A DNA stretch of 64,000 bases from Silvibacterium bohemicum (lineage in GTDB: Bacteria; Acidobacteriota; Terriglobia; Terriglobales; Acidobacteriaceae): contig NZ_LBHJ01000001.1 in NCBI RefSeq assembly GCF_001006305.1, positions 62,001 to 126,000 of the forward strand, written 5' to 3'. The notes below the pieces were generated by a model. It saw nothing but the letters and a program-made list of their open reading frames with translations, did no database searches and was not told where the DNA came from. Positions 35,551 through 50,810 of the stretch are shown here, in pieces. Every line of letters begins with the position of its first letter. Position 1 is the stretch's first letter. A program made the translations under genes and the position numbers.

Positions 35551-36786
35551 TTAAACCGGAGTAATGATTCCGCCCACCGGGCTGCGTTCGGGATATTTCT
35601 TTTCCTCGGGGCTCTCGTTCTCCGCAGGCCGCTTCAAACCCATGGCTTCCGCGATCATGTCGACGTATTTGAGGCCGGAGCCGGTGTTGAAGAGCACGAC
35701 CCGGTCGGAAGGCTTGAGGAAGCCGGTCTTGATCAGGTGATCGTAGGCTGCGGTGGCAGCCGCGCCCTCGGGGCAGAGCAGCAACCCTTCGTTGCGCGCC
35801 CAGTCGAGGAGGGAATCGAGGATAGCCTCGTCGCTGAGATCGATGACCGTTCCGCCCGACTCCTTGACCACGTCGAGGATGATGTAGTCGCCGTAGGGCT
35901 TGGGTACGCGGAGTCCGGCGGCGAAGGTCGACGCGTTTTCGAACATCTTCGAGACGGCAGCGCCTTCGCGGTAAGCACGGGCTACCGGGGCGCATCCGGA
36001 TGCCTGGACGGCGATCATCTTGGGGCGCTTGCCGGGTTTGACCCACCCCAGGGCTTCCATCTCTTCGAAGGCCTTCCACATGCCTATGAGGCCTACGCCG
36101 CCGCCGGTGGGATAGAAGACGGCGTCGGGATACTCCCAGCCTAACTGCTCGACCAGTTCATAGCCCATGGTCTTCTTGCCCTCTACGCGAAAGGGCTCCT
36201 TGAGCGTGGAGATATCGAACCAGCCTTCGGCGTCTTTGCGCTCGGCGACCATGCGGCCGCAATCGGAGATGAGCCCGTCGACCAGCGTTACGTGCGCACC
36301 GTAGGCTACGCCTTCGAGGTAATTGGCAAAGGGAACATCTCGCGGCATGAACAGATGGGCTTCGATCCCTGCAGCGGCGGCGTATGCGGCGAGCGCGCCG
36401 GCGGCGTTTCCTGCCGAAGGCGCAGCGAGCTTCTTGAGGCCATAGTGCCTGGCCATGGAGACAGCGGCCGACATGCCCCGCGCCTTGAATGCCCCGGTGG
36501 GATTGGTGGCTTCCTCTTTTACATACAGCTGCGGATAGCGCTGGCTGCGCAGCATCGGGGTCCATCCCTCGCCGAGCGTAACCGGCTCTACGTCGGGAAG
36601 AACGGCGGAGTAGCGCCACATGTTCTGCAATCCGCCGGGCGTGGGCCGGGTGGAATTTTTCTTGACCTCGTCGAGGTCATAGCGGACGTATAACGAACCG
36701 GCACAATGAGGGCAAACTGTCTGAGGAAGATCTGCGGAAACATGCTGGTGACAGCGGGAGCATTCGAGGGAAGCAATTGCAGGCAT
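35551..36786 (-). CDS. thrC: Threonine synthase
   Basis: A 411-residue PLP enzyme that converts O-phosphohomoserine to threonine. An N-terminal zinc-ribbon-like segment (ECSRCHQHV ... TVCPHC) precedes the tryptophan-synthase-beta fold. VKEEATNPTGAFKARGMSAA contains the PLP Lys, APSAGNAAGALAAYAA and PTGGGVGLIGMWKAF are the cofactor loops, and LFNTGSGLKYVDM ends the fold. It is a single gene; a hairpin at 36841-36871 lies upstream of its start. Confidence 0.92.
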   Translation of the reverse strand: MPAIASLECSRCHQHVSADLPQTVCPHCAGSLYVRYDLDEVKKNSTRPTPGGLQNMWRYSAVLPDVEPVTLGEGWTPMLRSQRYPQLYVKEEATNPTGAFKARGMSAAVSMARHYGLKKLAAPSAGNAAGALAAYAAAAGIEAHLFMPRDVPFANYLEGVAYGAHVTLVDGLISDCGRMVAERKDAEGWFDISTLKEPFRVEGKKTMGYELVEQLGWEYPDAVFYPTGGGVGLIGMWKAFEEMEALGWVKPGKRPKMIAVQASGCAPVARAYREGAAVSKMFENASTFAAGLRVPKPYGDYIILDVVKESGGTVIDLSDEAILDSLLDWARNEGLLLCPEGAAATAAYDHLIKTGFLKPSDRVVLFNTGSGLKYVDMIAEAMGLKRPAENESPEEKKYPERSPVGGIITPV

Positions 36787-36832
36787 CTCTTTAGCCTACT
36801 AAATTTGCGAAGGACACCGGCGATACCAAGCT

Positions 36833-36872
36833 GCAAAAGCAAAGACCTCGGTTAGTCATGCCGAGGTCTTTT
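36833..36872 (-). terminator. Rho-independent terminator, probably for the upstream tRNA-like transcript
   Basis: On the minus strand an 11-bp perfect stem (36871-36861 with 36851-36841), with a 9-base loop, is followed by GCTTTTGC. It lies 102 bases downstream of the tRNA-like gene and 55 bases upstream of thrC, so it can separate the two units. The T-tract is short, so efficiency is uncertain. Confidence 0.65.
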
Positions 36873-36973
36873 GCTATGAAGCACCGCCAGTAAGTAGCTT
36901 GCCGTCTGAGAATAGCACCAGTATATGCCTTGACCTTATTGCGGTACATTAAAATTCTTTGGCTGCAGTGCTG

Positions 36974-37063
36974 CGGAGGGCAGGAGAGTCGAACTCCCAG
37001 AGCTGACTAAGACCCTGCAACCGTTTCTCAGACGGCGTCCAGTACCTACTGAAGATGCCCTCC
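36974..37063 (-). tRNA. Allo-tRNA-like gene, 8/4 acceptor branch, anticodon GAG
   Basis: Read on the minus strand, the 90-base RNA folds as follows. The acceptor is GGAGGGCA with TGCCCTCC (8 bp, 37063-37056 with 36982-36975). The D stem is TTCAGT/ACTGGA (6 bp, one G-U) with a 4-base AGGT loop. The anticodon arm is GCCGT-CTGAGAA-ACGGT, with U33 and anticodon GAG (37029-37027). A 5-bp long variable arm is CAGGG/CTCTG, the T stem GGAG/CTCC (4 bp) with loop TTCGACT, and the discriminator is G. No CCA is encoded. The 8+4 acceptor branch and Sec-like D arm separate it from ordinary tRNA-Leu. G73 and the long arm suggest serine charging. A 7/5 reading with one G-U pair is possible but weaker. Confidence 0.72.
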
Positions 37064-37259
37064 AAACGAGCCGCCTGATTCACGCAATCTACTCGTCTCC
37101 CTGCGACACTCCCACGACAATCGGTCTGTCGAGGTGACGAAAGTCTTTTCATTCGTTTCATTTTGGGAAAAGTACGGAAGACTAAACAGGGTTTTGCCTG
37201 CTCTATCATGGAGCGGGCTTTCCTTCGACCCGAAAACTAATTTCAAAATACTGAGAGCG

Positions 37260-50595: not shown

Positions 50596-50713
50596 TGAAC
50601 ATTCTCCAGAACAAATGATTTCAAAAACCTTATTGTCGCCGAGGCCGGAGAGGGCTGTCCATTGCGGTGCAGGGAGACGCGGAATAGAAGGAGCGAGGAG
50701 GGAAAATCTACAT

Positions 50714-50810
50714 GTACCGGGAGACCTGCTGCGCACGCACTAGCCCGTTACCGTTGCTTCCTTCCGGACCTGGCGGGATTGGCGGGATTGCGCCGCGCAG
50801 GGCCCGGCAC
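50714..50810 (-). ncRNA. ffs: Signal recognition particle RNA (4.5S-type, small form)
   Basis: The minus strand contains the SRP domain IV core CAGGTCCGGAAGGAAGCAAC, with GGTAACGGGC after it. The 5' GTGCCGGGCC and the 3' CCCGGTAC ends can pair. The 97-base length is typical of the bacterial short form, which binds Ffh for cotranslational targeting. Exact ends are inferred from pairing. It lies upstream of fabH; ftsY, the receptor gene, is at the other end of the window. Confidence 0.9.

Follow-up and report, generated by a model that had tools for sequence, protein, structure and literature searches.

Introduction

Several described systems resemble parts of the locus reported here. Selenocysteine tRNA (tRNA-Sec) usually carries the anticodon UCA and in bacteria has an 8/5 branch, and canonical tRNA-Leu has a 7/5 branch and A73. 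The allo-tRNA class reportedly goes back to a 2017 paper by Mukai et al. Among systems in which one RNA acts on another, type I toxin-antitoxin pairs (hok/sok) use a pair-specific antisense RNA as the antitoxin, with the mRNA for a toxic peptide as its target; type VIII systems (for example SdsR/RyeA) have an RNA that controls a toxic RNA; and in 3'ETS-leuZ the spacer of a tRNA transcript sponges small RNAs (sRNAs). In CreTA, CreT attacks the tRNA pool and CreA directs Cascade to the creT promoter, according to PMC8501985. For Silvibacterium bohemicum, the review PMC7609411 reports that an 8/4 and a 9/3 allo-tRNA put serine at leucine codons (CUC, UUA) in E. coli, and it calls the role of allo-tRNAs speculative.

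This study describes an allo-tRNA gene and a predicted antisense sRNA gene in the window (the whole 64-kb stretch of DNA that was analysed), together with their relatives in other genomes. The class of the allo-tRNA is already published, and the part that appears to be new is the putative anticodon-matched sRNA gene. An antisense partner of any allo-tRNA is not described in the titles and abstracts listed by literature searches; the text of the 2017 source paper lay outside their scope and may hold more.

Materials and Methods

A covariance model was built from seven sequences and searched at E ≤ 1e-6 against 398 genomes of the window's family, giving 102 places in 70 genomes (UAU types included). 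Further matches were found in 25 of 399 of a class sample, 15 of 80 of one genus and 6 of 95 of another order, and at E ≤ 1e-7 in 5 of 347 of a phylum sample; the family, class, genus, order and phylum samples overlap, and some of the matches are UAU-type or Ser-like tRNAs. In the phylum sample, two matches were new, and both look like true tRNA-Sec.

The alignment held 95 of the 102 family places and one weak row (L152), making 96 matches from 93 sources; six family places were left out (G385:C83, G221:C488, G252:C151, G151:C151, G294:C522 and G409:C243), and G205 was added later as L170. Before counting, 11 of the 96 family rows were dropped, comprising nine of UAU type (L136, L138-L140, L148-L151 and L153) and two Ser-like (L152), as were 9 of 16 class rows, comprising the UAU-like L159, L160, L166 and L169 and, as Ser-like, three rows of L165 together with L167 and L168. 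Seven class-sample genes were added (L170, which belongs to the window's own family, and six from outside it), giving 92 modules from 64 genomes; among them, 90 bodies and 75 anticodon arms are distinct. The anticodons of L170, L128, L133 and L163 were corrected by hand before the tally.

Results

The gene at 36974-37063 on the minus strand is an allo-tRNA, a member of the published class. It has an acceptor stem of 8 bp, a D stem of 6 bp with a 4-nt loop, an anticodon stem of 5 bp, a T stem of 4 bp and a long variable arm, and the lowest-energy RNAfold structure of the mature RNA is the 8/4 cloverleaf (-36.7 kcal/mol). This fold agrees with the stems, D loop, G73 and GAG anticodon given in a preliminary description of the locus; the variable arm is long, as that description had it, although the fold contains six pairs rather than five (five without the last U-G). 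The Rfam tRNA-Sec model (RF01852) gives the gene 50.0 bits against a cut-off of 47, the site is absent from the 47 genome matches of the generic tRNA model RF00005 (150 of 152 candidates scored), ARAGORN finds zero tRNAs in the whole window, and the custom 8/4 model finds the relatives counted above. Over the seven sequences, 95.2% of the cells of the 8/4 structure are paired and 10 pairs have changed on both sides, compared with a mean of 3.5 in shuffles (0 of 500 equal it) and at most 2 in slid versions, so that the 8/4 fold is conserved and covarying at homologous loci. The covariation, the long arm and G73 (the latter two presumably serine identity features) bear out the earlier proposal of an allo-tRNA with serine-type features and a leucine anticodon.

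An ordinary tRNA-Leu(GAG) was considered for this gene and rejected, in line with the preliminary description, on its 8/4 branch, its G73 and its absence from the RF00005 matches; tRNA-Sec was rejected on the anticodon GAG in place of UCA and the 8/4 branch. In the 6.46-Mb genome of the window (G000), ARAGORN identified 48 distinct ordinary tRNA sequences on the fetched stretches, including tRNA-Leu genes with anticodons UAA, CAA, UAG, CAG and GAG, and the genome's own UCA tRNA-Sec is a separate gene on G000:C13. With an ordinary tRNA-Leu(GAG) and a tRNA-Sec elsewhere in the genome, the window allo-tRNA is therefore an extra. The CCA end is encoded in 48 of 48 ordinary tRNAs of G000 and follows the discriminator in 4 of 92 allo-tRNAs. 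Separately, a gene at G000:C9:62726-62797 (L055) has the ARAGORN anticodon ACT (Ser AGU), no long arm and 43.4 bits with the tRNA model, and is possibly an odd or decaying tRNA. The window also contains a bacterial small SRP RNA gene (50712-50809, minus strand, 66.5 bits) and a match to an acidobacterial VWA-domain model.

Table 1. Features of the module and its surroundings, in window coordinates.
Feature	Position	Strand	Remarks
Threonine synthase gene	35551..36786	(-)	flanking, outside the module
Stretch absent from the same junction in G001	36799..37163		approximate ends; spans the sRNA and allo-tRNA genes plus the region upstream of the latter
Predicted antisense sRNA gene, ~80 nt	36831..36914	(-)	ends inferred from promoter-like site and terminator
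Terminator-like hairpin of the sRNA	36841..36871	(-)	followed by GCTTTT
Antisense block 3	36879..36885	(-)	pairs allo-tRNA nt 4-10, predicted duplex
Antisense block 2	36887..36899	(-)	pairs allo-tRNA nt 12-23 (D arm), predicted duplex
Antisense block 1, TTCTCAGACGGC	36901..36912	(-)	exact complement of allo-tRNA nt 28-39
-10-like TATACT of the sRNA	36920..36925	(-)	consensus scan only
-35-like TGTACC of the sRNA, weak	36943-36948	(-)	17-nt spacer; 8/12 consensus bases together with the -10
3' trailer stretch	36961..36968	(-)	complementary to allo-tRNA nt 42-49
Allo-tRNA gene	36974..37063	(-)	8/4 branch, anticodon GAG, G73, CCA not encoded
5' leader stretch	37070..37078	(-)	complementary to the 5' side of the anticodon arm

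The predicted sRNA gene lies about 60 nt downstream of the window allo-tRNA on the same strand (Table 1), and the target of its first antisense block is the 5' strand of the anticodon stem together with the loop. Co-folding gives a duplex of 31 pairs over tRNA nt 4-39 with a net energy of -17.7 kcal/mol, compared with a best of -5.3 kcal/mol for the same sRNA against the 48 ordinary tRNAs and 0.0 for tRNA-Leu(GAG). The window module is below average for its kind, with 12 exact pairs in block 1 and a weak -35; its terminator is clear. Taken together, the three blocks are probably an inverted copy, since diverged, of the tRNA's 5' half.

The same arrangement is conserved across the relatives. 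With a score threshold of 11.5, set after looking at the scores, and a search range widened from 21-130 to 21-200 nt downstream after L100, L109 and L118 had been seen, an antisense element was found in 83 of the 92 non-UAU modules and 59 of 64 genomes; controls used the wider range, and Markov-shuffled downstream DNA (20 rounds) gave a mean of 1.4 of 92 (maximum 4). Permuted partners reached the threshold in 27.3 of 92 (maximum 36) because the D arm is shared; therefore, the anticodon-specific tests carry the weight. All three anticodon bases are Watson-Crick matched in 74 of 92 modules, compared with 15.7 (maximum 23) for permuted partners and 7.1 (maximum 12) for partners with a different anticodon. 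Nine modules scored below the threshold, among them L092, which has just 193 nt downstream. The antisense copies start 55-66 nt after the tRNA in 53 of 83 modules (range 38-167), and the predicted duplex has a median length of 32 bp (range 18-38, n=83).

Beyond this set, 0 of 34 ordinary tRNAs of G000 with enough flank had the element, and among genes examined after the rule was set it was present in 5 of 5 allo-tRNAs and 0 of 2 tRNA-Sec-like genes. Of 13 loci examined from other families in the class, six have the arrangement with differing sequence and terminators, the remaining seven being UAU-like or Ser-like. UAU-type allo-tRNAs had no consistent antisense, with 2 of 9 family rows reaching 12.5-13.0 in a longer search range; the UAU rows were set aside after they were seen to lack the element, and keeping the nine family and four class UAU-like rows gives 83 of 105. 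A frame near the UAU-like L160 looks, by its motif, like a REP-associated transposase, and similar frames are found near L069, L074 and L076. At two loci, L074 (1190-1278 and 1501-1589) and L078 (968-1055 and 1501-1588), a pair of allo-tRNA modules lies in tandem, and every one of these modules has an antisense element to itself.

Signals typical of a gene surround the antisense copies. The -35/-10-like match before the antisense averages 9.25 of 12 over the 83 modules, compared with 6.68 in shuffles; sites with at least 10 of 12 sigma-70-like consensus bases occur in 43% (0.7% of shuffles), an exact TTGACA in 43 of 83 and a spacer of 16-17 nt in 64 of 83, and the weakest matches (7/12) are found in five. 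In 69 of 83 modules a gap of 3-6 nt separates the end of the -10 box from the antisense, and transcription of the RNA would therefore begin near it. A terminator-like hairpin follows the antisense in 83 of 83, compared with 29% of shuffles.

The pairing potential covaries with the anticodon. Over the 83 modules the anticodon columns are 95% Watson-Crick (50% when permuted), with three to five pair types each, and net binding averages -17.8 kcal/mol for cognate pairs (n=83) and -3.4 kcal/mol for non-cognate pairs of another anticodon (n=209). In the 18 genomes with at least two modules, the cognate duplex averages -37.8 kcal/mol (n=46) and the non-cognate -23.3 kcal/mol (n=84); a non-cognate antisense binds equally well or better in 4 of 46 within-genome cases (L063, L059, L106 and L092, one pair having the same anticodon), and therefore pairs are not strictly private. 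Across modules the anticodon arm is hypervariable, with the antisense changing in step, even at one genomic site. Such anticodon switches with a matching antisense give pairing its strongest evolutionary support. Having to keep pairs separate within one genome could drive the hypervariability of the arm.

The flanks of the tRNA are also complementary to it. The 5' leader scores a mean of 9.07 against the anticodon arm (6.92 permuted, n=85), and the 3' trailer 9.42 against the 3' side of the anticodon arm and the variable arm (7.18 permuted, n=92). Among five folded precursors, L090 and L143 prefer a leader/trailer alternative, the cloverleaf arms persist in the window precursor and in L064, and in L158 the inner arms persist with the acceptor re-paired to the trailer. 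When the five mature RNAs were folded with RNAfold, L090 again formed no cloverleaf, and the anticodon stem of L064 differed. The leader and trailer pairing may act as another lock or be a trace of the module's origin.

The anticodons of the 92 allo-tRNAs are GCG (25), GUC (21), GCC (13), GAG (10), UUC (8), AUC (7), GAU (3), GAC (2), and GUA, CUC and CAG (1 each), and the discriminator is G in 71, U in 19 and A in 2. The 19 cases of U73 for G73 may reflect charging by a different synthetase or less charging with serine. C33 replaces the near-universal U33, which may weaken decoding, in 27 of 92 loops, a count that precedes the re-reading of four of them. As in working tRNAs, the GG of the D loop, the T loop, the long arm and the branch of 12 bp are conserved.

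In the window, the module is flanked by genes for threonine synthase and a GDSL lipase; in the same-genus genome G001 these two genes adjoin without the stretch of about 365 bp, and both a gain in the window's lineage and a loss in G001 are possible. Among eight same-genus genomes (72-99% complete), seven had no match and one (G005) had another type. Elsewhere, modules recur at orthologous sites, the neighbour gene names being a reading of the sequences rather than the result of a family search: beside an alcohol dehydrogenase-like gene (15 loci; GUC, GCC and GCG), beside a sigma-factor gene (9 loci; GUC, GCG and GCC), beside cytochrome c biogenesis-like genes (GAG, GAU and GAC) and with heme-synthesis-like genes (GAG in 5 of 5). 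A phage or plasmid origin was considered and rejected. Viral contigs gave 0 matches to a pattern that suits one clade and does not cover the gene in the window, which is weak evidence against a phage origin; there was no match in plasmids for 1001 bases and none in phages for 241 bases. A protein partner was considered and rejected: when ORFs of at least 80 aa from the fetched flanks were clustered, most of the recurrent clusters proved to be genes that adjoin orthologous sites. A frame of 160-212 aa lies upstream of five modules in four genomes (L064, L075, L089, L141 and L146) and looks like a multicopy element.

Discussion

Combined, the results suggest a two-RNA module in which a mis-charging tRNA that reads heavily used codons would be kept silent by its own antisense RNA, an account that is probable but leaves considerable room for others. 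Host SerRS would charge the allo-tRNA with serine, and the charged tRNA would put serine at a heavily used codon, here CUC/CUU. A short antisense RNA, made from its own promoter just downstream and starting near the antisense stretch, would pair with the 5' half of the allo-tRNA, open the D and anticodon arms and cover the anticodon; with the anticodon masked and the arms unfolded, the allo-tRNA would stay silent for as long as antisense RNA is supplied. In the precursor, the 5' leader and 3' trailer could pair with both strands of the anticodon arm as a possible second lock. A failure of the antisense supply, through a stop in transcription, stress, phage infection or loss of the locus, would free the missense tRNA, giving a toxin-antitoxin-like logic from RNA alone. 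Serine charging of the window allo-tRNA may be expected by analogy from its long arm, G73 and the S. bohemicum report (PMC7609411); serine incorporation by those allo-tRNAs therefore supports the serine idea through a close case, not through this gene. Of the "conditional mistranslation" proposed in the preliminary description, the serine part is thus supported, and the control element that would supply the condition, the adjoining antisense RNA gene, went unmentioned there.

Codon choice points to harm by a free allo-tRNA. The 11 codons read by the allo-tRNAs average 29.2 per 1000, compared with 16.4 for random sets (printed p 0.0000, 20000 draws), and differ from random NNC/NNG sets at p=0.001; CUC ranks 9th in usage in 41 window ORFs picked by codon-position GC. 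G35 occurs in none of the 92 anticodons in the tally, from which seven Ser-like rows had been set aside beforehand, which leaves out the boxes of Ala, Thr, Pro and UCN Ser, in which a serine would be mild or silent. With common codons read and the mild boxes absent, a free allo-tRNA should therefore hurt, and an antisense RNA able to unfold it would be a natural restraint.

The same parts could instead form a regulated missense tRNA that benefits the host, the antisense RNA metering a low, condition-dependent Ser-for-X substitution with no poison to guard. Recurrence at fixed sites between housekeeping genes, as at the alcohol dehydrogenase-like and sigma-factor loci, is what such a function would yield, and relatives do function in E. 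coli translation according to PMC7609411; indeed, the long stay at fixed chromosomal sites would fit a host function as well as addiction. However, anticodons change at one site, a poor fit to benefit from a single substitution, and presence is patchy even with UAU types counted (70 of 398 family genomes), and a host benefit is considered unlikely. Translation might also be beside the point, with the duplex of the two RNAs serving as a guide, sponge or processing substrate and the tRNA fold lending stability and defined ends. The C33 loops, the rarity of an encoded CCA beside its presence in every ordinary tRNA and the length of the duplex would suit such a use, whereas the tRNA features that are conserved (the GG of the D loop, the T loop, the long arm and the branch of 12 bp), the common codons read and the lack of a common protein partner among ORFs in the fetched flanks speak against it, making it more doubtful still than host benefit.

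A third account would dispense with function for the downstream copy altogether, treating it as an inverted repeat kept matched by template-switch mutation. The leader, trailer and downstream copies do all match the arm, as repeat correction would yield, but a promoter-like site and a terminator frame the downstream copy, in other families too and there with different terminators, and the account is highly improbable. Returning to the silenced mis-charging tRNA, a toxin-antitoxin role of the module is plausible. The fuller version is put forward tentatively, with the odds somewhat against it: a new RNA-only toxin-antitoxin class in which a tRNA toxin recodes common codons to serine, an unfolding antisense RNA is the antitoxin, the arm diversifies so that pairs are largely private, and the purpose is perhaps a trigger against phages that shut off host transcription.

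A matched antisense beside most non-UAU allo-tRNAs offers these tRNAs a role, that of being kept silent and released on demand. If the toxin reading is true, a tRNA acting as toxin would represent a novel type of effector, and natural tRNA/anti-tRNA pairs, told apart by a few bases, would provide recoded translation with switches ready for use.

Overall, the module shares single features with several known systems. Like tRNA-Sec (RF01852), the window allo-tRNA has a 6-bp D stem, a 4-nt D loop, an 8-bp acceptor stem and a long arm, but its anticodon is GAG and its T stem has 4 bp. As in 3'ETS-leuZ, a spacer of the tRNA transcript could pair with other RNA, whereas here a separate predicted sRNA would cover the tRNA body itself. 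Pair-specific antisense would be common to the module and to type I systems such as hok/sok, the difference being that the target in the window folds as a tRNA and is not an mRNA for a toxic peptide. The module would resemble type VIII systems and CreTA in having one RNA that controls another, for which the DNA offers complementarity and gene-like signals; the would-be toxin, however, is a tRNA that its partner would pair with directly, while CreA acts via Cascade. With the described allo-tRNAs the window gene shares the 8/4 branch, the serine features and a non-Ser anticodon, the reported S. bohemicum case reading CUC; an antisense partner is absent from the accessible part of that account (PMC7609411), whereas the window module carries a putative anticodon-matched sRNA gene.
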